A stretch of DNA of 28,191 bases from the IMG/VR virus record IMGVR_UViG_3300031707_000132, positions 1 through 28,191 of that record. One strand, 5' to 3'. The stretch is from a virus. Within the stretch, counting starts at the first letter, position 1; each line of letters opens with the position of its first letter. The notes under the pieces were generated by a model. The model was not told where the DNA came from. It saw only the letters and a program-made list of their open reading frames with translations, and made no database searches. Both the position numbers and the translations under genes were made by a program. This document shows, piece by piece, positions 19,009-28,191 of the stretch.

Positions 19009-19448
19009 TTAAACCGTTTAAACAATACTTTAGTAAACTAGGAATCTATAACGGGGATATAAACAACCCATTAATAGATGATCAGTTTGTCTTTGCGGCA
19101 AAAAGTATTGAAAATAAACTATCAACCGAAATAAAAAAACTTAACCCAAACTCGCTAAATGCTTTTGGGACCATTATTGTTGGAGACTCATTAAACCCAC
19201 AAGCTTCTCCGCAAGATATAGAAAAGGCGTTCGATTTAATTTCTAAAGCTCAAGCCACTATGGATGCTATTGATATTAAAGATACTCAGGAAAATCCGCC
19301 AATTGCTACTAAGTTTGTTCCAACGGCTGATGATAAAATAGATAGTCCTCTAGAGTCTCAACAAATTGGGGCCACAGAAGAATTAATGCCAGAAAAGTTA
19401 GCAAACAATATGGATGAAAGATTTTTATTATTTTCTATGCTGCGTTAA
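19005..19448 (+). CDS. Hypothetical protein, 147 aa
   Basis: The gene starts in an ATGA overlap with the 365-aa gene and is the last + strand gene of this operon. The N-terminus (YFSKLGIYNGDINNPLIDDQ, then a helix) is faintly like peptidoglycan-binding modules, in which an LGxYxGxIDG motif opens the fold, but key residues are not conclusive. The remainder is polar with Pro-rich linkers and ends in a short hydrophobic helix (RFLLFSMLR). Its last 14 nt overlap the convergent HNH gene on the other strand, so no terminator fits between them. Function unknown. Confidence 0.7.
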   Translation: MIKPFKQYFSKLGIYNGDINNPLIDDQFVFAAKSIENKLSTEIKKLNPNSLNAFGTIIVGDSLNPQASPQDIEKAFDLISKAQATMDAIDIKDTQENPPIATKFVPTADDKIDSPLESQQIGATEELMPEKLANNMDERFLLFSMLR

Positions 19449-20070
19449 TTTTATGTCTTGTTCTTCTTAGGCCATCTAGTAAATTTTGTTTCGCACTTAA
19501 TGGTCTTAAATTAGATAACGCCCAACATTTCTGAAAATTACTCTCCGGATCATGTGACATCTCTGTGTATGGCAAATCTGATTGTGGAATTATATGATCT
19601 ATTTGCCAGGTCCATGTAGAAGGATCATTATCATCCCAAGTTTTAGGACTGTATACTCCTTGGTTTTTGTCAGTCATCCACCATTCATATTTAGACTGCA
19701 AATGAGCAAACATTTTATTTATTTCCAAAAATTCTGATACAGACCTGCCGTTTTTAGTAGATCCTTGTTTTTTAAGGGACAAATTAACCATAAGGCTAAC
19801 AGTTTTTCTACATCTAAAAGCAGGATCGTTTTGGCGGCGCTCTCTTTCTTTCGCCCTTATTTCTTTTTTATGTAACTCGTACCATTCTTTTTGACACTTA
19901 TGAACCCTTTCTTTATTTACCGGGTTATGTTTTACATATTCTTTTTGACGCGCAACTCTACATTTTTTACATTCTTCACGCCATTTATTATTATCTTTTC
20001 GCCAACTAAAATTGTCAAAACTTAATTCTTTTTCCAGCCCGCACATTGTACATTTTTGCAAACAAATCAT
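19435..20070 (-). CDS. HNH homing endonuclease, 211 aa
   Basis: The C-terminal 70 residues hold an HNH core (WQIDHIIPQSDLPY, then NLRPLSAKQN) nearly identical to that of the 10641 gene. PKTWDDNDPSTWTW just before it is also shared exactly. The N-terminus has one Cys-pair unit (CTMC and CKKC), a shorter version of the triple set in its paralogue. It is encoded against the direction of the surrounding virion genes and overlaps the end of the preceding gene tail to tail. Insertion immediately upstream of a beta-rich virion gene repeats the pattern seen at 10641 and 12291. Confidence 0.87.
   Translation of the reverse strand: MICLQKCTMCGLEKELSFDNFSWRKDNNKWREECKKCRVARQKEYVKHNPVNKERVHKCQKEWYELHKKEIRAKERERRQNDPAFRCRKTVSLMVNLSLKKQGSTKNGRSVSEFLEINKMFAHLQSKYEWWMTDKNQGVYSPKTWDDNDPSTWTWQIDHIIPQSDLPYTEMSHDPESNFQKCWALSNLRPLSAKQNLLDGLRRTRHKINAA
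19616..19647 (-). repeat. 32-nt exact inverted copy shared with 11376-11407
   Basis: This is the partner of the copy in the 10641 HNH gene, in opposite orientation about 8.2 kb away. It encodes the conserved segment just before the HNH histidines. Recombination between the two would invert the segment that lies between them. Confidence 0.85.
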
Positions 20071-20985: not shown

Positions 20986-21069
20986 ATGTTCTGTAACGAG
21001 TGTGCCAAATTTCTACAAACAAAAAAATTTGCTGATGTATGTTGGCAATTACCTAAGGAGATTGAATGA
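20986..21069 (+). CDS. Possible 27-aa Cys-containing leader ORF coupled to capsid gene
   Basis: A 27-codon frame (MFCNECAKFLQTKK... ending LPKEIE) contains a CxxC pair and a third Cys. Its TGA overlaps the capsid ATG (ATGA), and its last codons contain the capsid Shine-Dalgarno sequence. Its own start has only a weak ribosome binding site. It would couple capsid translation to its own. A chance frame of this length is quite possible. Confidence 0.35.
   Translation: MFCNECAKFLQTKKFADVCWQLPKEIE
21054..21060 (+). promoter_or_regulatory. Strong ribosome binding site of capsid gene (TAAGGAG)
   Basis: TAAGGAG is a full-length match to the anti-Shine-Dalgarno sequence with a 5-nt spacer to ATG 21066. 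It is the best such site in the window and fixes the capsid start. Confidence 0.88.
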
Positions 21070-22079
21070 GTTTATTTAGTACAAATGGAGAGATGAATGC
21101 GTCGTCTGTAAAAGATGCGTTAAACACTCTCGTAAAATATGCGGCGATTCTAGAAGAGAACCAGCCGTCAAATTCTGCTTTAGCTGGTCGTCCGGGCCTT
21201 AACGATGAGAAACGCGATGAGCTTATGTCTCGCGCGATTCTTACCAACGAAGGCAAAGTCGCGTTAGCCCAGGCAATGGCTAACCCGATTCGACGCAACT
21301 TAGATTACCAAGGAATTGCTCGTAGAGTTCTCGTTGTTGATCCGCTCCCCCAAGGCGCGAATCCTTCATATGAGCGCGATATTGACGTTTCTGCTACCGT
21401 TGTATCTTCAAACGGTACGGGTGCAGAAAGCCGCGTATTCGGTGACCGCGTTGTTGTTCCGACCTTCGAGATTTTCTCAAATCCGACCGTTAGGATTTCA
21501 GAAGTTCGTCGTCGTCGGTTTAACGTTATTGACAGAGCGGTTCAGAAGGCTCGTCAAGAAATCATGGCCCAGGAAGATGCGAACATCTTTGCTGCCCTTG
21601 ATAACGCTTCCGGTGTCGAGAACACGGTACAGGACATTGCTGACGGTGGATTGCTTAAGCGCGACCTCATCGAAATCAAAGTCCAGATTGATCGCTGGGA
21701 CTTGGTAACGACTAAGTTCTTCATGAACATCAATGAGTTTACGGATATCCTTAACTGGGCATCCGGTGGCGGTCAAGGCCCGACTGGTGGCGAAGTTGAC
21801 CCGGTAACTCAGCGCGAAATTCTACAGACCGGTCTCTACGCTCATATCTGGGGCGCGGATATCATGGTCTCCAAAATCGTTCCTCCGGGCACTGTTTATG
21901 GAGCTGCCGATCCTGAGTTCGTTGGTGTAATGCCGATTCGTCAGGATATTGAAGTTCTTCCTGCTGACGAACCTAAGCAGTTAAAACTAGGATGGGTGGT
22001 ATCGGAAGAAATTGGTATTGGTATCGTAAACCCTCGCGGCACGGCCAAGGGTAATAAGAGCATCGTTATTGGCTCCTAA
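21066..22079 (+). CDS. Major capsid protein, HK97 fold, 337 aa
   Basis: Length and features fit an HK97-type capsid protein. A short helical N-terminal arm holds LVKYA at residues 22-26. It is followed by a helix and strand with RRNLDYQGIARRVLVVDPLP, the GDRVVVPTFEIFSNP strand pair, a long spine-like helix (RFNVIDRAVQKARQEIMAQE), and a C-terminal beta-rich part ending WVVSEEIGIGIVNPRG, which fits the central axial domain. LVKYA lies at the distance from the start where a maturation protease could trim the arm. Expression signs are the strongest in the window: a full Shine-Dalgarno sequence, CGN arginine codons and a strong terminator right after the gene. The protease and scaffold are 15 kb upstream, separated by inserted endonucleases and other virion-type genes. 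Confidence 0.9.
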   Translation: MSLFSTNGEMNASSVKDALNTLVKYAAILEENQPSNSALAGRPGLNDEKRDELMSRAILTNEGKVALAQAMANPIRRNLDYQGIARRVLVVDPLPQGANPSYERDIDVSATVVSSNGTGAESRVFGDRVVVPTFEIFSNPTVRISEVRRRRFNVIDRAVQKARQEIMAQEDANIFAALDNASGVENTVQDIADGGLLKRDLIEIKVQIDRWDLVTTKFFMNINEFTDILNWASGGGQGPTGGEVDPVTQREILQTGLYAHIWGADIMVSKIVPPGTVYGAADPEFVGVMPIRQDIEVLPADEPKQLKLGWVVSEEIGIGIVNPRGTAKGNKSIVIGS

Positions 22080-22100
22080 TTAGCCTAACGAGTGATTGAG

Positions 22101-22140
22101 AAATAAAGGTCGGACTTGTTCCGGCCTTTATTTTTTTATC
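22101..22140 (+). terminator. Strong rho-independent terminator after capsid gene
   Basis: AAATAAAGGTCGGA (22101-22114) pairs with TCCGGCCTTTATTT (22120-22133), 14 bp with one G-U pair and a 5-nt loop, followed by a run of T's. The A/T-flanked stem could also work on the - strand, but the nearest - strand gene ends about 1 kb away. Confidence 0.92.
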
Positions 22141-22186
22141 TATGTAATATTTAGATATATTGTTACACACGTTATAGGATAAACAA

Positions 22187-23197
22187 ATGTTAAACAAATA
22201 TGCAGTTGAACAAATAATCACATTATACAACCAGGGGCTATCATCGGCGGTTATCGGCAAAATGATTGGTAGTAAAGCGCAAACAGTTACCAAATATTTA
22301 AAAGATGCCGGAATTGAAATAAGAGGTCCAAAAAAAATATTAACGGAAGAAAACAAACAAGAAATATGCGAGTTATATAAGCAAGGAATGTCAATGCCTA
22401 AAATATCAGATAAATATAATGTATCTGGTATTAGAAGGATTCTTAAAAAGAATGGGGTTAAAATCCGTTCGGCAGAAGCCGCGCACCGTATTTACCCGAT
22501 AAACGAAGATTTTTTCGATAATATTGACTCTGAGGAAAAGGCTTATTTTCTTGGTTTTTTATATGCCGATGGTTGCAATCATAAAAGTGCAAATTTTGTT
22601 ACTTTAGGTCTTGAGCAAACAGACAAAGAAATTTTGATTAAACTATCTAGATTAATTTACAAAGAAAACCCAGAACAACATGTAAAAACTCAAGATAGAA
22701 CACATGAAGGAAAGGGAATAACGGCATATATAACGATTCACAGCAAGCATATTTGTGAGCAATTGGAGAAGCTAGGGTGTATGGAGCGCAAAACATTTAA
22801 AATTGAATATCCTGAATGGCTACCTAAAAATCTTAACAGGCATTTTATAAGAGGATATTTTGATGGTGACGGTAGTATAAACGTAAACTTAAAAAAAGGA
22901 TATAGCAGCACGTTTAAAATAACATCAACATTACAATTTGTCAAAAAAATAGATGAAATTATAAGGGGCGATATTGATGTACACTTTTGTTTTTATAAAG
23001 CGAAAAACAGTAATGTATTTGATGTATCTACTTCTGGCAATAGACAAGTAGTAAAAATACTTAATTGGATGTATGAGGAATCCGAAATTTACTTACAAAG
23101 AAAATATAAAAAATACAATGATCTTAAGTTAAAGAACGAGGAAACTGATGAATTAATAATAGCAGGCACACGAGGACATAGCAAAAAAAAATATTAA
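22187..23197 (+). CDS. LAGLIDADG homing endonuclease with N-terminal HTH repeats, 336 aa
   Basis: Two LAGLIDADG motifs are visible: AYFLGFLYADG (residues 119-129) and HFIRGYFDGDG (219-229), each with its acidic residue (Asp128, Asp228). This is the two-motif monomer form. The first 95 residues hold two helix-turn-helix-like units (QIITLYNQGLSSAVIGKMI and QEICELYKQGMSMPKISDKY) that probably add target contacts. It lies directly after the capsid terminator, on the same strand as the capsid gene, with its own AT-rich promoter-like region. Its last 4 nt overlap the tail of the convergent HNH gene. The likely natural target is an intron-less or endonuclease-less version of the capsid region, which I infer from position only. 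Confidence 0.9.
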   Translation: MLNKYAVEQIITLYNQGLSSAVIGKMIGSKAQTVTKYLKDAGIEIRGPKKILTEENKQEICELYKQGMSMPKISDKYNVSGIRRILKKNGVKIRSAEAAHRIYPINEDFFDNIDSEEKAYFLGFLYADGCNHKSANFVTLGLEQTDKEILIKLSRLIYKENPEQHVKTQDRTHEGKGITAYITIHSKHICEQLEKLGCMERKTFKIEYPEWLPKNLNRHFIRGYFDGDGSINVNLKKGYSSTFKITSTLQFVKKIDEIIRGDIDVHFCFYKAKNSNVFDVSTSGNRQVVKILNWMYEESEIYLQRKYKKYNDLKLKNEETDELIIAGTRGHSKKKY

Positions 23198-23769
23198 GTT
23201 GAAAAATTTACGTTATAAACTTTTTTAATCCAATCTAAAAATTCATCTACAGATCTATTTCTTTTAGCGTAATTGCAATGCCAACAGCAAGGAACAACAT
23301 TTTCTAATGTATGAGTTTTAGAGCTGTCTATTCTATCTAATCCGTTATAAACAAAATCTCCTTGATCTTTGGCTTGTTGTGAAGATTTAGGATCGTCTTT
23401 ATGGGTATTAGCCTTATTATTTGGAGGATCTCCGCAATAATGGCAATTTTTTTGAGTTAGTTCAAAAAAATCTTCAAAAGATAATCCGCCATCCCTATAC
23501 CTGCGTCTCCAAACTGTTCTGGCGGAAGATATAGACGGGTGATATTTTATATTTTTTTTGTACATATTAGGGGCGCGAGCGCTTATTTTTTCAAGATTAA
23601 GGCATCCGCAAGATTTAGTATGTTCATCTCGTAAGTGATCTAATTTCACAATAACTGTATTTTTGCAATCACACAAACAATTCCACTTAGATCTTTCACC
23701 AGGCTCAGTTGCGTCGGAAATAACTAATAGTCTTCCGAATTTTTGACCTACTAAATTTACTTTTTTCAT
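23194..23769 (-). CDS. HNH endonuclease with N-terminal zinc ribbon, 191 aa
   Basis: The N-terminal 60 residues (GQKFGRLLVISDA, then WNCLCDC and SCGC) are a small Cys-rich domain common in phage HNH proteins. The C-terminal nuclease begins with CHYCG (Cys109, Cys112) and continues YNGLDRIDSSKTHTLENVVP and CCWHCNYAKRN, where the Asp/His/Asn pattern and second Cys pair are those of a zinc-bound HNH fold. It is the last gene of the four-gene reverse cassette, starting in an ATGA overlap with the methyltransferase gene. It is not close to the other two HNH genes in this window. It may be a homing endonuclease or the nuclease part of the cassette. Confidence 0.88.
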   Translation of the reverse strand: MKKVNLVGQKFGRLLVISDATEPGERSKWNCLCDCKNTVIVKLDHLRDEHTKSCGCLNLEKISARAPNMYKKNIKYHPSISSARTVWRRRYRDGGLSFEDFFELTQKNCHYCGDPPNNKANTHKDDPKSSQQAKDQGDFVYNGLDRIDSSKTHTLENVVPCCWHCNYAKRNRSVDEFLDWIKKVYNVNFST

Positions 23770-24803
23770 TTGTTATTCCTGAACATATATATTGATTCAA
23801 ATTTAGTAACGCCTGCTGTTTTATTTAAATGCCCGCGAATTGTACGTAATTGTACTTCTTCTATTATTGGGCCGAATTTATCTTTTGCCATATCGACCAT
23901 CCTCGGGAAATTCTTAACATTTAAACCAAACCATTTCCCCGGCTTTAGCATATATTTAACGTTTTCTAAGGTGTCATTCCAATAAGTGTTATAGAAGTAA
24001 TCTTCACCATTATTATATGCCTGAGTAGAATCAGATGAATAGTGCTCTTGATTATAATATGGAGGAGAACTAAAACTAAAATCAATTGAGTTTTCGTCTA
24101 ATCTAATGTGTTCTGATCCGCTGTTAATAAGTGTTATATTTTTTAAACCAAAGAAATCAGCCATTGTTTGAACTTCTGGAGTAGTAAGAGGATCTGTTGC
24201 GATATATTTACGATTACAAGAAGCGGCTGCTAATAGTCTACCTCCGAAGCCGGCCGAATAATCGAACACAATATCTCCTTCATTAGAGTATTTCATATAC
24301 ATATATTTGGCTATATCCGGTTTAAACATAGATGTAGAGGCAACTAATCTCTGAGAACGAAAGCCCTGCACAATCATTCGGAAAGAGAGATTAAAAGCCT
24401 CATTTACGCCGGGCCCATTTTGATCATTTTCCAGCCAATCTAAACCTAATCTATTTGCTATTGTTTTCCTTAATTTTACATCATCATTAAATATTTCAGG
24501 GATAGTTTTGGTATTTTTATCCCTGGCATCATAAAATTTGTGACAAAAATGTTTACATAATTTTGTGCCCAGGCTGGAGTTATTAAATAAATCAATAGCC
24601 TCAAGGTTAGGTACAAAATCAACAATTCTTTTATATTCTTTATTTAAAACGGCATCTGAGTAGTCTGGATACATGAAGCTGTTTTGGCGTAAAAGATTAA
24701 ATACCGGTTCAATTAGAGCTTCTCTTTCTGTTTTGTTTAAAGATTGTATATAATGTTTAGTTAGTTTTTTACCATTTATAGAGATAATTTCGTCGTATTT
24801 CAT
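23766..24803 (-). CDS. SAM-dependent DNA methyltransferase (SPPY type), 345 aa
   Basis: Residues 179-190 (VFDYSAGFGGRL) are the SAM-binding motif I, with Asp204 (IATDP) as the motif II acid. SSPPYYNQEHYS at 245-256 is catalytic motif IV; the SPPY form is found in amino-methyltransferases that act on cytosine N4 or adenine N6. Motif I precedes motif IV. The 175-residue helical N-terminus has no visible methyltransferase motif and may bind DNA or a partner. VKYMLKPGKWFGLNV is motif VI-like. It overlaps both neighbours by 4 nt. It may protect the phage DNA from host restriction, or partner the nuclease or the acyltransferase encoded beside it. The target sequence is unknown. Confidence 0.85.
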   Translation of the reverse strand: MKYDEIISINGKKLTKHYIQSLNKTEREALIEPVFNLLRQNSFMYPDYSDAVLNKEYKRIVDFVPNLEAIDLFNNSSLGTKLCKHFCHKFYDARDKNTKTIPEIFNDDVKLRKTIANRLGLDWLENDQNGPGVNEAFNLSFRMIVQGFRSQRLVASTSMFKPDIAKYMYMKYSNEGDIVFDYSAGFGGRLLAAASCNRKYIATDPLTTPEVQTMADFFGLKNITLINSGSEHIRLDENSIDFSFSSPPYYNQEHYSSDSTQAYNNGEDYFYNTYWNDTLENVKYMLKPGKWFGLNVKNFPRMVDMAKDKFGPIIEEVQLRTIRGHLNKTAGVTKFESIYMFRNNK

Positions 24804-25993
24804 AAAGCCTTCCTTATCTTTTTTTCTATATATTTCTTAAGTTTTTCTTTGGAGTATTTAAATAGGCTATAGGGAGGTATTTTGATTAGTTTTATATTTA
24901 ATTCACTACATTTAATTCTTTTAATTTCATCTCTATATTTTTGATATTCTAGTTTTTCTTGTGTGTTATTATATAAGCTAACTACATAGTGTTGTTTGCC
25001 TTGTACCTCTATTGCTAATTTCAACTCTTTGTTATAAAAATCTAATTGTAGTGAGCGACCAGTTATAGGGTTTATTATCCAGATATAAAAAAGATTTCGT
25101 TTAAAATAATATTGCGGCAAAATTTCTTTTAATATTTCATTAACGATATTTTCTTGATTGTACGCATTAGCACATTTCGGACATCTACTTTTATTATTAA
25201 TTCTTGAGCCAAAATCTTGTTCATATATTTTATGCTCTTCGTTGACTAAACATATAAATTTTTGCTTTTTGCTAGCAGGCAATCCAGCAACAACTAAAGA
25301 ATAATCATCTTTATTTCCATGAATTTCTTTATCCCTATTAATCCATTCTTCTATTGATAAGTTTTTTCCAGAGCATTTTGGACACCTTTGTTTGCCACGA
25401 ATTCTGTTATCAAATGATTGTTTATATATTTTGTGACCTGGGTTAATTAAACATATAAAGTTTTGTTTTTCTAGACATGATAGTCCAGAAACGACCAAAC
25501 AATAATCATCTTTGTCTTTATGAATTTCTTTATCTCTTTTAATCCACTCTTCTATTGATAAACCTTGTCCTGAACATTTTGGGCATCTTACTTTTTGATT
25601 GACTCTACAATTAAACGACTGTTCATACACTCCATGATTTTTGTTAACTAAACATATGAACTTTTGTTTTGTCATACATAATAGACCGTTCACAACTAAA
25701 GAATAATCATCTTTATCTACATGAATCTCTTTGTCTCTTCTAATCCAATCTTCTATTGGTTTGGTTTTTGATTTTGCTTTTTTAATTTTCCCGCATTTAG
25801 GACACCTAACTTTATTTTTGTTATTAACTCTGCTATTAAAAGCCTGTTCGTACAATCCGTGTTTTTCGTCAACTAAACATATAAATTTTTCTTTTTCCAT
25901 ACATAATTTACCTACAATTAAGGAATAATCATCTTTATCTCCGTGTATTTCTTTGTCTCTTCTAATCCACTCTTCCTTAGTTAGTTTTCTCAT
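24800..25993 (-). CDS. Four-repeat zinc-finger (DUF723-like) Vsr-like nuclease, 397 aa
   Basis: The first 274 residues are four copies of a module with the order EEWIxRDKEIH, KDDYSLVV, FICLV, H, IYEQxFxxR and CPKC. I recall this as the DUF723-type repeat of phage proteins. Each has four likely zinc ligands: Cys39/His45/Cys64/Cys67, then the same at 114/120/137/140, 181/187/204/207 and 248/254/271/274. Repeats 2-4 have a regular 67-residue period. Residues about 285-397 look like a Vsr/EDxHD-type PD-(D/E)XK nuclease: LQLDFYNKELKLAIEVQGKQ has Asp318 and Glu329, followed by His335 and a KLIKIPPY strand. This layout resembles I-Bth0305I-type homing endonucleases. Its place between an acyltransferase-like and a methyltransferase gene, all by ATGA overlaps, is unusual for a lone homing gene. 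Confidence 0.83.
   Translation of the reverse strand: MRKLTKEEWIRRDKEIHGDKDDYSLIVGKLCMEKEKFICLVDEKHGLYEQAFNSRVNNKNKVRCPKCGKIKKAKSKTKPIEDWIRRDKEIHVDKDDYSLVVNGLLCMTKQKFICLVNKNHGVYEQSFNCRVNQKVRCPKCSGQGLSIEEWIKRDKEIHKDKDDYCLVVSGLSCLEKQNFICLINPGHKIYKQSFDNRIRGKQRCPKCSGKNLSIEEWINRDKEIHGNKDDYSLVVAGLPASKKQKFICLVNEEHKIYEQDFGSRINNKSRCPKCANAYNQENIVNEILKEILPQYYFKRNLFYIWIINPITGRSLQLDFYNKELKLAIEVQGKQHYVVSLYNNTQEKLEYQKYRDEIKRIKCSELNIKLIKIPPYSLFKYSKEKLKKYIEKKIRKAL
25172..25984 (-). repeat. Four tandem coding repeats of about 200 nt (zinc-finger modules)
   Basis: These are the DNA copies of the four zinc modules of the 24800 gene. The last three have a 201-nt period; the first is longer by about 24 nt because of a Lys-rich linker. 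The copies are clearly alike at the protein level (RDKEIH, DDY, CPKC), with moderate DNA divergence, so they arose by tandem duplication some time ago. Confidence 0.85.
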
Positions 25994-26730
25994 ATTATTT
26001 TTCCGTCATAATAATTATATGTATAGCTAGGAAATTTAGTCTTGTAGTGTATTAACCCTTTTGTAGTCTGACCTAAATCAATTAGTGATATGTTATTTTC
26101 TAGACATTTTTTATAAAGCAAAACATCAGCATATTCAGACAATCCGTAATATTTATGACATAGTGCTTTTCCTATAATATAAGTACAGCTTTCATTTACT
26201 TGTGGCGATGCTGTAGCAAAAGCAACTAGTTTATTTTGATCATATAAAAACACATTAATACATTTTTCATGAAAGTTATTAGCATAGAAATAATAGTTTT
26301 TTCCAGAAAAATCCCTGAAATATTTTAACGCCATATTATTTGACCAATCTTCTATGAGATCTTTTACGTCTTGTATATTTCTAAAATTATCTTCTTCAAC
26401 TAAATTATATTTTCCGGCTCTATTTAAGGCATGTCTAATAGTTTTAAAATTATTACCTTTGAATTCTAATTTGCTCATATCTATAATGACTGATGTGTTT
26501 TTTGAGCCGGATACTTTTGTTTGTTTTTTTAGGAACTGATAATTTTCCACCGACAAATAATGAAACCCTCTGTCGGTAAGTTTTGGAATATCTTCGGTTA
26601 TTATAGTTTTGCTGGTACAGAAGTGTTTCTTTTTGCCTACTTCCCAGAAATAAATATCGTTTTCTTCTATAAGATTTTTGCTTTGTTTTCCAAGTAGGCA
26701 CTTCCAGCTGTACTGATTAATATAAGACAT
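25990..26730 (-). CDS. GNAT/FemAB-like acyltransferase, 246 aa (alternative GTG start at 26763)
   Basis: The C-terminal half reads like a GNAT/FemAB-type N-acyltransferase: INVFLYDQNKLVAFATASPQ forms the central strands, YYGLSEYADVLLYKKCLEN a helix, and LIDLGQTTKGLIHYKTKFPS the closing motif seen in that superfamily. The N-terminal part contains a long helical region (FKTIRHALNRAGKYNLVEED) and no membrane segment. I start at ATG 26730, which leaves an 80-nt gap to the divergent gene; GTG 26763 would add 11 residues. It is the first gene of the four-gene reverse cassette. It could act on a small molecule, a protein or DNA: the Mu Mom protein is a known DNA-modifying member of the GNAT fold. 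The fold call is moderate and the substrate unknown. Confidence 0.6.
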   Translation of the reverse strand: MSYINQYSWKCLLGKQSKNLIEENDIYFWEVGKKKHFCTSKTIITEDIPKLTDRGFHYLSVENYQFLKKQTKVSGSKNTSVIIDMSKLEFKGNNFKTIRHALNRAGKYNLVEEDNFRNIQDVKDLIEDWSNNMALKYFRDFSGKNYYFYANNFHEKCINVFLYDQNKLVAFATASPQVNESCTYIIGKALCHKYYGLSEYADVLLYKKCLENNISLIDLGQTTKGLIHYKTKFPSYTYNYYDGKII

Positions 26731-26793
26731 TAACAAGTAGTGGGTAATCTTCGGGGCAAACACGACAAATAACTAAATTGAACTGCATTGCAT

Positions 26794-26802
26794 ATTTTAC
26801 CA
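26794..26802 (-). promoter_or_regulatory. Possible extended -10 promoter of reverse cassette
   Basis: On the - strand the bases read TGGTAAAAT, an extended -10 (TGnTAnnnT), about 64 nt before ATG 26730. A good -35 is not seen. It lies in the gap between the divergent genes, where the cassette must have its promoter. Confidence 0.25.
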
Positions 26803-26810
26803 TTTATCTG

Positions 26811-27608
26811 ATGAGTAAAAATAACTTACCTCTAGATGGAAAAGCCTCTTTGTGCGAAAAAATAGCTCAGGACTATGAATCGTATATTGATTTGGGTATG
26901 ACTTTGTGCCCGACTAACCCAACATATAAAATTATTGCCAGAGAAGAAAATCTTGGAATCAAATTAGAAGCACGTTTAGCCGCTTTTAAATCGTTTGATA
27001 GCCCAGCCCCAATCATAAAACAAGCATTTGATACCAGAAGAGTAAACCAAGAAACTGACAGAAACCCAAGACAAAATCTACAATATTGGCACAGAGCAGA
27101 TGCGTTTATTGATAAAGAAGATGAAGGAAAACTTACAATATTTGCTAATTTGATGAGTATTTTAAATGATATAAAAACTGATTTTGGAACCCAGCCTGAA
27201 TGGTTTGAGTCTTATTCTAGAATTTTATATGATAATGTTCATAGGATTTTGCGAATTAAACAAGCCGATTTAGATATATTTAAACCTCAGCTATCATATT
27301 TAGAACAGTTAGTTTTTGCGCGATATAGATTAAGCATGGAAGATTTATCTAAGTTTAGCAAAGAAGACATTCGCGCTAAATTACTAAGCAAAGATGAGGC
27401 ATTGTTAAAGCGCGGAAATTATTTGAATGAAACTGGTATAACTAAAGGGTCTGCTGTTGAAAATAAAAATATAGTTATAGATGGAAGCAAGACAACGCAA
27501 GAATCATTAATACAAGCTTTATTTGGTGGGGGCGCAATTAGGAAAGACGGCGAAAAAAATGTTTCAAGAACTATAACAATCACAATATCTGACAATGTTT
27601 TAGATTAA
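26811..27608 (+). CDS. Hypothetical virion-region protein, 265 aa
   Basis: I start at ATG 26811; the ATG at 26778 in frame would add 11 hydrophobic residues (MNCIAYFTIYL) that could be read as a signal but leaves little room for promoters. No clear Shine-Dalgarno sequence precedes either. The product is soluble and mixed, with [11 protein letters not shown] matching the recurrent Lys-x-Ala motif. A helical central region has several Trp and Tyr residues, and the C-terminus is polar and beta-like ([12 protein letters not shown]). The fibre gene starts 2 nt after its stop, which suggests a role in tail or fibre attachment. Family not recognised. Confidence 0.73.
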
Positions 27609-27610
27609 TC

Positions 27611-28191
27611 ATGAGCGGTAATATAAAGATAATTACTGACGGTGGTGACGGCGGTGGGGGCGAAAGTCCAGCTCCAGTACCTCCAGAGCCAGGATCGCCA
27701 TTTACCGTTGATATGTATGTTAATCATGAGGTATTGAGAGCGGATATAAACTCAATTCATGGGCGCGCAATATCTGGAGATGCCCCTACTGATGGCGAAT
27801 CCCTTACTTGGAATGAGACGAATCAAGTGTGGGAGCCTGGACCTGGGGGTGGCGGAGGACCTGCTGGGCCCGCTGGATCTGTTGGACCTGCTGGATCTGT
27901 TGGACCTGCTGGACCTGCTGGACCTCAAGGCTCTCCAGGTGTTACAGGGGCTACAGGACCTCAAGGAGCGCAAGGTATTCAAGGAGTAACAGGAGCTACC
28001 GGACCTCAAGGCAATCCGGGCGTTACAGGGGCTACAGGACCTCAAGGAGCGCAAGGTATTCAAGGAGTAACAGGAGCTACCGGACCTCAAGGCAATCCGG
28101 GCGTTACAGGGGCTACTGGGCCTGATGGACCTCAAGGCTCTCCAGGTGTTACAGGGGCTACAGGACCTCAAGGAGCGCAAGGTATTCAAGG
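27611..28191 (+). CDS. Collagen-like phage fibre protein (3' end outside window)
   Basis: The frame from ATG 27611 stays open to the end of the window (193 codons). Residues 1-75 include a Gly/Pro-rich start and a segment [19 protein letters not shown] ending in a Trp-Glu-Pro-Gly, a motif common in phage tail-fibre proteins. From about residue 78 the sequence is Gly-x-y triplets ([32 protein letters not shown]), a collagen-like triple-helical shaft. Exact 81-nt DNA units are repeated. Pro and Thr-rich triplets suit a thermally stable trimer, as in other bacterial and phage collagen-like proteins. Receptor-binding or knob domains would lie beyond the window. Frames on the other strand and in other phases here are shadows of the repeat. 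Confidence 0.87.
27941..28102 (+). repeat. Two perfect 81-nt tandem repeats coding collagen-like triplets
   Basis: Units 27941-28021 and 28022-28102 are identical (27 codons each). A third, shorter and altered copy begins at 28103 and the unit starts again at 28148, running off the window. Exact identity means recent duplication and makes the shaft length easy to change. Confidence 0.92.

Follow-up and report, generated by a model that had tools for sequence, protein, structure and literature searches.

The window, the whole 28,191-nt stretch of DNA analysed here (IMGVR_UViG_3300031707_000132), carries a plus-strand major capsid protein gene (21066..22079; phrog_2522, E 9e-80) whose product has the major head protein of Bacillus phage G as its closest named relative (55% identity). 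The module described here lies directly downstream, in a slot closed by a conserved virion-operon gene that we call vgA (26778..27608, plus strand). The plus-strand gene at 22187..23197 encodes a LAGLIDADG homing-type endonuclease with an N-terminal HTH (PF14528, E 1.4e-11; phrog_4645, E 5.5e-64); both catalytic Asp motifs, YADG and DGDG, are intact by motif check, and the protein is akin to the LAGLIDADG half of a fusion protein in relative L117. This gene converges on a cassette of four minus-strand genes, with a 4-nt overlap at the stop of the first, an HNH/endonuclease VII-like nuclease (23194..23769; phrog_1035, E 2e-20). The other three encode an SPPY amino-methyltransferase (MTase), which is the core of the module (23766..24803; PF01555, E 8.3e-6; phrog_498; motif order X-I-IV), a zinc-repeat nuclease with a Vsr-like C-terminal domain (24800..25993; phrog_559, E 6.4e-36; PF14311), and a FemX/MprF-type tandem-GNAT aminoacyltransferase-like protein, here called FemAB (25990..26730; PF09924, E 1.8e-5). 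The zinc-repeat nuclease carries four repeats, each about 201 nt long, and ends in a Vsr-like motif, read by eye as D...E-V-Q-G-K-Q-H. For FemAB, a GTG at 26763 is an alternative open start, and the ATG at 26730 agrees with the start in homologues. An additional HNH gene lies near the cassette at 19435-20070, and no RNA elements or tRNAs were found in the window.

The original prediction described this cassette from the sequence alone, and its four open reading frames, its gene calls and the three minus-strand ATGA junctions (25990, 24800, 23766) all stand. It left unmentioned the converging LAGLIDADG gene, the identity of the neighbouring capsid gene and the inversion described below. Chance is an unlikely source of these junctions, since of the window's 23 remaining pairs of same-strand neighbours just 4 overlap by 4 nt; by simple arithmetic that assumes independence, three consecutive 4-nt overlaps would have a probability of roughly 0.5%. 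The prediction also took the coupling to mean that the genes were not independent homing insertions, and that part finds no support. Only in this population does the zinc-repeat nuclease separate FemAB from the MTase; it is missing at that junction in the closest relatives (L003, L004 and L006), so the ATGA overlap by itself is uninformative on origin. Because the kind, number, order and strand of the nucleases vary between relatives, they come and go yet retain ATGA-type coupling. The window's HNH nuclease is 57% identical to one encoded upstream of FemAB in L006. The whole cassette is inverted with respect to its closest relatives; only short or weak inverted repeats are present in 22000-27000, so no mechanism for the inversion was found, and promoter-like sites for the inverted cassette were not above shuffles (27 versus 29).

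We then looked for the same genes in other phages, keeping 80 of 309 reported relatives for the MTase and 80 of 355 for the capsid protein. The exact four-gene order occurs only in the population of this window, but a smaller module recurs. Among 92 non-redundant MTase loci, 24 encode single-chain nuclease-MTase fusions, in 21 a nuclease gene adjoins the MTase, and the other 47 show neither arrangement. Nearly all linked loci (about 43 of 45) lie next to a capsid gene, and these capsid genes belong to two unrelated lineages, phrog_2522 and Gp23; in one genome (L066/L127) an MTase-FemAB pair lies about 10 kb away from the capsid gene. The genes are not scattered over unrelated places, the outcome that would have counted against a cassette. 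No nuclease, capsid gene or transferase was detected near the 47 more distant MTases in this survey, and a check of nine flanking genes turned up no overlooked nucleases; these relatives sit in replication gene clusters (UvsX, DnaB, RNR). No plasmid homologues of the MTase were found. The recurring unit beside the major capsid gene, carried by many uncultured and often giant phages, is a predicted DNA amino-MTase with at least one homing-type nuclease and, often, a coupled FemX/MprF-type aminoacyltransferase.

MTases of this family are fused to five types of nuclease: LAGLIDADG_3 (20 loci), LAGLIDADG_2 (LR745208.1), GIY-YIG (L186/L187), DUF7487 (L168) and zinc-repeat (L030). FemAB is itself fused to a LAGLIDADG nuclease in L071. 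Both catalytic Asp motifs are kept in 12 of the 13 LAGLIDADG_3 fusion sequences examined, one Asp being lost in L127, and both halves score above their Pfam cutoffs in L117 (LAGLIDADG_3 and N6_N4_Mtase) and in L186 (GIY-YIG and N6_N4_Mtase). Some LAGLIDADG fusions received 'Zn' tags in the 92-locus survey only because one query extended into the MTase domain, and these tags are spurious. In the MTase tree, 44 linked MTases form one clade (SH-aLRT 98) within which the fused or unfused state changed at least 10 times, the partnership enduring while the nuclease is swapped. LAGLIDADG and MTase distances remain correlated once capsid distances are accounted for (r 0.73, p 0.002), as do FemAB and MTase distances with the capsid protein controlled for (partial Mantel r 0.73, p 0.0004). 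Together with FemAB-MTase gene overlaps of 4-25 nt that recur in relatives and with the many nuclease-MTase fusions, these patterns uphold the earlier view that the genes act as a unit. Of the two functions then suggested, a modification-and-cleavage pair is the better.

We tentatively propose, with slightly less than even confidence, that the module serves, at the capsid locus, for self-protecting homing or the exclusion of rivals. In a co-infection, its homing-type nuclease (the LAGLIDADG, HNH or zinc-repeat enzyme in the window; GIY-YIG or DUF7487 elsewhere) would cut the DNA of phages without the module, probably at or close to the conserved capsid gene; repair would then copy in the module together with flanking capsid DNA, or the rival would be lost. 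In the carrier's own genome the MTase would mark these sites on an exocyclic amino group and so spare them, even though the nuclease targets a conserved gene that carries no interruption. The pair, which is one polypeptide in some relatives, would behave as a restriction-modification enzyme does, with the aminoacyltransferase as an accessory that could further modify a base or a protein. There are precedents for both aspects: a homing endonuclease mediates interference competition between phages (PMC11620839), and a fused GIY-YIG restriction-modification pair functions as a single chain (PMC3039593). Several considerations weigh against this proposal. The MTase is nearest in fold to tRNA m2G MTases, the nuclease half of the fusions could serve for DNA binding alone (L127 lacks one catalytic Asp), and the MTases of L006 and L009 read SPAY in place of SPPY. 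Linkage is largely confined to one clade, so that p-values across loci overstate independent support. Free-standing homing endonucleases normally avoid self-cleavage through sequence differences, without an MTase.

Alternatively, the MTase (with FemAB) could be a gene that benefits the phage, for instance by countering restriction in the host, and that travels with homing nucleases at a homing hot spot, the fusions being read-through accidents and the nuclease unprotected. We consider this unlikely but worth serious attention. The slot is a general insertion site that takes other cargo: among 77 loci chosen by their capsid gene, 35 hold a CCA-adding enzyme there. Homing nucleases generally cluster close to capsid genes (PMC10448857), and the unlinked MTases reside among replication genes. 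The CCA-adding enzyme, however, is never fused and is accompanied by a nuclease in only 7 of its 35 loci, whereas every MTase found in the slot has a nuclease (5/5, against 8/50 slots without an MTase), most of them fused. Five fused nuclease types and repeated changes of fusion state, with the partner never lost, exceed what accident would be expected to produce.

Another possibility is DNA hypermodification, in which the MTase and then the aminoacyltransferase would act on a base, leaving an amino-acid group that makes virion DNA resistant; the nucleases would either be incidental or destroy competitor DNA without the modification. The co-evolution and recurrent overlap of FemAB with the MTase fit this idea, as does the confinement of FemAB to linked MTases (19/45, against 0/47 unlinked). 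Structure prediction gave FemAB a tandem-GNAT LPG-synthase/FemX fold (pLDDT 92.5; Z 19.6 to 2hqy and about 16 to MprF C-domains), shared over all 246 residues with FemX, MprF (LPG synthase) and Sbb17/Sba18 at Z 13-16. PF09924 is matched by 14 of 15 family members (best E 5.2e-13), the window protein alone reaching 24.4 bits against a cutoff of 27.5. On the basis of the fold, aminoacyl-tRNA is the predicted donor. Unlike FemX and MprF, the enzyme is phage-coded and has an MTase and a homing nuclease as coupled partners, and no FemAB was found by sequence among named phages. A Mom-like origin for it is not supported, as the 15-member profile matched Mu Mom by hhalign with a probability of 0.2% over 9 columns. 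Hypermodification seems improbable to us, because FemAB lacks this similarity, no further hypermodification gene was seen beside the module, and 20 LAGLIDADG-MTase loci do without FemAB, which was not found in the rest of their long contigs either; the MTase can therefore dispense with it. FemAB occurs in 0 of 20 LAGLIDADG_3 fusions and 19 of 25 other linked loci (p 7e-8, uncorrected), but with independent pairs p is about 0.125 and the exclusion is a tendency only.

We likewise give little weight to an RNA-directed role, in which a Trm11-like MTase would act on tRNA and a FemX/MprF-like enzyme would use aminoacyl-tRNA, the pair altering host translation, peptidoglycan or lipids separately from the nucleases. 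The modelled MTase (pLDDT 92.9) is nearest in fold to tRNA m2G MTases (Z 18.5 over about 175 aligned residues; top matches Trm11, TrmN and Trm14), the transferase has the fold of enzymes that use aminoacyl-tRNA, and the CCA-adding enzyme found in the slot of other phages acts on tRNA. The module MTase shares SPPY motif IV, motif I/X residues and a Rossmann fold with both PF01555 N4-cytosine/N6-adenine DNA methyltransferases and Trm11-type enzymes, of which Trm11 is the nearest in fold; unlike either, it has its own N-terminal domain of about 150 residues, and its X-I-IV order differs from that of beta-class DNA methyltransferases. However, motifs X-I and IV resemble those of N4/N6 DNA MTases, and aligners that keep chain order may overlook permuted DNA MTases. 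Motif IV is intact in the window protein (SPAY replaces SPPY in L006 and L009), which falls 0.4 bits short of the PF01555 cutoff (26.3 against 26.7), while L117 (40 bits) and L186 (33 bits) pass it. Recurrent fusion to DNA nucleases and HTH domains, and the relatives among DNA replication genes, suggest that DNA is the methylation substrate. Finally, several homing genes acquired independently, along with two accessory genes unrelated to each other, could have piled up by chance at a hot spot with no common function. This agrees with the unique four-gene order and the nearby LAGLIDADG and further HNH genes, but is very improbable and already disfavoured given that MTase and nuclease recur in 45 loci and two capsid lineages, with fusions.

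The proposed self-protecting unit combines traits of two known kinds of system. The view that restriction enzymes and homing endonucleases are related selfish systems is an old one. As in restriction-modification, a DNA endonuclease and a predicted DNA methyltransferase are encoded together (21 adjacent pairs) or in one chain (24 fusions), and the fusions have the N-terminal nuclease and C-terminal amino-MTase of single-chain Type IIG/IIC enzymes and engineered RM.Eco29kI (PMC3039593), whose self-marking logic we propose for the module. Unlike Type IIG/IIC enzymes, the module is phage-borne, sits at a capsid locus and has interchangeable homing-type nuclease halves (LAGLIDADG, GIY-YIG, DUF7487, zinc-repeat). 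We know of no restriction enzyme with a LAGLIDADG fold. With free-standing phage homing endonucleases of the T4 Seg/Mob type (PMC2988022, PMC10448857) it shares nuclease families and an intergenic site by a conserved essential gene, with alleles that have or lack the insert: homologues of vgA come after the module or, in 14 empty slots of 64-254 bp, directly after the capsid gene. It differs in that an MTase persists as partner or fused domain, frequently joined by an aminoacyltransferase. Neither MTase nor methylase is mentioned in the survey of phage homing genes that was searched (PMC10448857). Like gp210 of PhiPA3, also a giant-phage homing nuclease, the module would hit a competitor in co-infection, but gp210 is an intron-encoded HNH enzyme, and the abstract and section headings of its description name no self-marking enzyme (PMC11620839). 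In the literature searched we found no description of a self-protecting cut-and-copy unit of such make-up.

These loci provide natural chimeras of five homing-type nuclease types, LAGLIDADG and GIY-YIG included, with one MTase clade at a single genomic place. They offer natural site-specific nuclease-MTase proteins, in which it is directly testable whether the MTase blocks the fused nuclease, and draw attention to an aminoacyltransferase that may act on DNA or on a DNA enzyme. If the MTase protects its carrier, this would explain how a homing nuclease can target an uninterrupted conserved capsid gene without killing its own host, and how phages exclude relatives in co-infection. More speculatively, and we think this unlikely, the module could represent a new class of mobile phage element, in which capsid-locus nucleases of unrelated folds are repeatedly fused or paired with one DNA-MTase clade and a tRNA-dependent aminoacyltransferase adds a further, possibly aminoacyl, mark. 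If so, homing and restriction-modification would be merged in one element, and a novel DNA modification could be part of it.

The window is a viral sequence record 28,191 bases long. Its cassette comprises four minus-strand genes (23194-26730): an LPG_synthase_C/FemAB-like gene (25990-26730), a zinc-repeat nuclease gene (24800-25993; phrog_559, E 6e-36), an SPPY methyltransferase (MTase) gene (23766-24803) and an HNH/endonuclease VII-like gene (23194-23769). These reading frames and their three ATGA overlaps lie exactly where the original prediction placed them; 4-nt overlaps also join 4/23 other same-strand neighbour pairs in the window. To that picture we add the surrounding genes: that for the major capsid protein (21066-22079; phrog_2522, E 9e-80), one for a LAGLIDADG endonuclease (22187-23197), convergent with the cassette, and the next virion-operon gene, vgA (26778-27608). 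We refer to the interval between the capsid gene and vgA as the ‘slot’. A second HNH/endonuclease VII-like gene (19435-20070, minus strand) runs against the virion operon 5’ of the capsid gene, and collagen-like G-X-Y repeat proteins are encoded in the virion operon of the window (27611-28191) and of L008 (13139-18979), the relative's reaching 1946 aa.

Across its full length of 246 residues, the predicted structure of the FemAB-like protein (pLDDT 92.5) matches transferases of the tandem-GNAT, aminoacyl-tRNA-dependent type (Z of 19.6 for 2hqy, ~16 for MprF C-domains, ~15 for Sbb17/Sba18 and ~13 for FemX). No relation to Mu Mom was detected. The MTase is predicted to be a Rossmann methyltransferase (pLDDT 92.9) nearest to Trm11/TrmN/Trm14 (Z 18.5), and its sequence motifs are of the N4/N6 DNA methylase type, in the order X-I-IV. 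Fold and motifs together therefore indicate a nucleic-acid amino-methyltransferase, and its fusions and neighbours suggest that the substrate is DNA. Two relatives (L006:10001-11035 and L009:9995-11050) carry SPAY instead of SPPY, perhaps reflecting decayed or altered activity.

Relatives (L numbers) are loci on other viral contigs; 80 of 309 MTase relatives and 80 of 355 capsid relatives were kept. For REARRANGEMENT, slot order was compared between the window and L003, L004 and L006. The closest relatives, L003 and L004 (78% identity in MTase, 72% in FemAB, 85% in capsid), have the order capsid gene, LAGLIDADG, FemAB, MTase, vgA on a single strand, with FemAB directly overlapping MTase and neither the zinc-repeat nuclease nor the HNH gene in the slot. 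L006 reads capsid gene, LAGLIDADG, HNH, FemAB, MTase, vgA; its HNH protein is 57% identical to that of the window but precedes FemAB, while the window copy follows the MTase. From these orders, the window cassette is inverted, with the zinc-repeat nuclease inside the FemAB-MTase junction and HNH at the other end. The nucleases are the variable component and FemAB plus MTase the stable one, and overlapping reading frames are kept in every arrangement compared. The original interpretation is supported in part: the four-gene set in this exact form is local, and a Mom-like origin of the FemAB-like gene is not supported.

In many relatives, a homing-type nuclease and the MTase form the N- and C-terminal halves of a single long ORF. 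LAGLIDADG_3-MTase fusions occur at 20 non-redundant loci (e.g. L007, L008, L018, L117), alongside fusions to the zinc-repeat nuclease (L030, 837 aa), DUF7487/homing endonuclease (L168, 803 aa) and GIY-YIG (L186/L187, 718 aa), and a tandem LAGLIDADG_2-MTase-zinc ribbon protein (LR745208.1, 1229 aa). Both domains exceed Pfam curated cutoffs in L117 and L186. In L071, LAGLIDADG is instead fused to the FemAB-like protein, with the MTase next. Both catalytic Asp motifs are kept in 12/13 LAGLIDADG-MTase sequences examined; the fusion L127:8623-10554 has lost one (DGKG) and adjoins a separate intact LAGLIDADG gene (L127:7617-8633).

Among 92 non-redundant MTase loci, 24 were fused to a nuclease, 21 had one within 3 kb (adjacent) and 47 had neither. 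Tagged capsid genes lay no more than 4.5 kb away at 23/24 fused, 17/21 adjacent and 0/47 unlinked loci; hand checks of L187 (twin L186 has Gp23, E 1e-77), L028 (capsid gene at 4.5 kb) and L023 (seen in twin L024) bring the total to 43/45 linked loci. FemAB accompanied 2 fused, 17 adjacent and no unlinked loci. Unlinked relatives have replication genes as neighbours (UvsX, DnaB, ribonucleotide reductase), and at other unlinked loci no nuclease was found among the nine flanking genes checked. Linked loci involve two capsid lineages, phrog_2522 and T4-type Gp23. A single clade holds 44/45 linked MTases (SH-aLRT 98), with LR745208 outside, so the very small p-value of the locus survey should not be taken to reflect equally many independent events. 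Within the linked set there were no fewer than 10 changes of fusion state and no fewer than nine of FemAB presence. What carries weight is that partners were swapped repeatedly and the partnership retained.

With capsid distances removed, MTase distances correlated with those of FemAB (partial Mantel r 0.73, p 0.0004, 10 loci) and LAGLIDADG (r 0.73, p 0.002, 14 loci). FemAB accompanied 0/20 LAGLIDADG_3 fusions versus 19/25 other linked loci, a difference strong when uncorrected but not significant with independent pairs. Of 11 records that carry a LAGLIDADG-MTase fusion, 10 yielded no FemAB, among them contigs of 394, 361, 354, 266 and 112 kb; in the eleventh (IMGVR_UViG_3300032265_003945, L066/L127) the fusion is located at the capsid gene, and a distinct MTase-FemAB pair stands ~10 kb off. 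L172:3343-7122 encodes LAGLIDADG_3 and LAGLIDADG_2 nucleases, two tandem FemAB-like proteins and then the MTase, flanked on both sides by capsid-like ORFs.

Of 55 contigs picked by capsid similarity alone, each with capsid gene and vgA, 14 had an empty slot (64-254 bp). Five had the MTase there, always with a nuclease (5/5, versus 8/50 slots without MTase); 15 long contigs of 124-481 kb with no MTase in the slot had none elsewhere. As a same-slot control, a CCA tRNA nucleotidyltransferase gene fills the slot in 35/77 capsid-selected loci (L079-L157; e.g. L103:1951-3198 and L145:8637-9881), always on the strand opposite the capsid gene, with fusion in 0/35, a nuclease in 7/35 and MTase in 0/35. 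Look-alike slot genes of ~184 aa were also seen: the product of L009:11086-11640 barely exceeds the RelA_SpoT cutoff (27.1 vs 27 bits), and that of L145:8089-8640 matched no Pfam family. Elsewhere (L008:6583-8785, L016/L243, L025/L207, L181, L244), a LAGLIDADG ORF interrupts the capsid ORF, intron- or intein-like.

Our search of the open-access literature turned up no account of chimeras between homing endonucleases and methyltransferases, nor of their linkage to the capsid gene. The window cassette is one example of a broader nuclease-MTase module at the capsid gene, which appears undescribed so far and is provisionally novel. There are precedents: a giant-phage homing endonuclease confers interference competition (PMC11620839), and a restriction enzyme engineered as a fusion with its own MTase retains both activities (PMC3039593). 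We propose, as the likeliest reading though at slightly less than even odds, that the module pairs a nuclease for homing or interference with an MTase that marks the nuclease's own genome. Architecture, motifs, capsid linkage and the exchange of partners are observed directly; cutting, its target, methylation of DNA, protection and any part played by the transferase are inferred. The nuclease would cut a gene that is conserved and uninterrupted and lies next to the insertion site, and the MTase would methylate the carrier genome and so guard it against its partner. Such self-marking would fit because the insert does not split the target, so that the usual homing protection would fail here.
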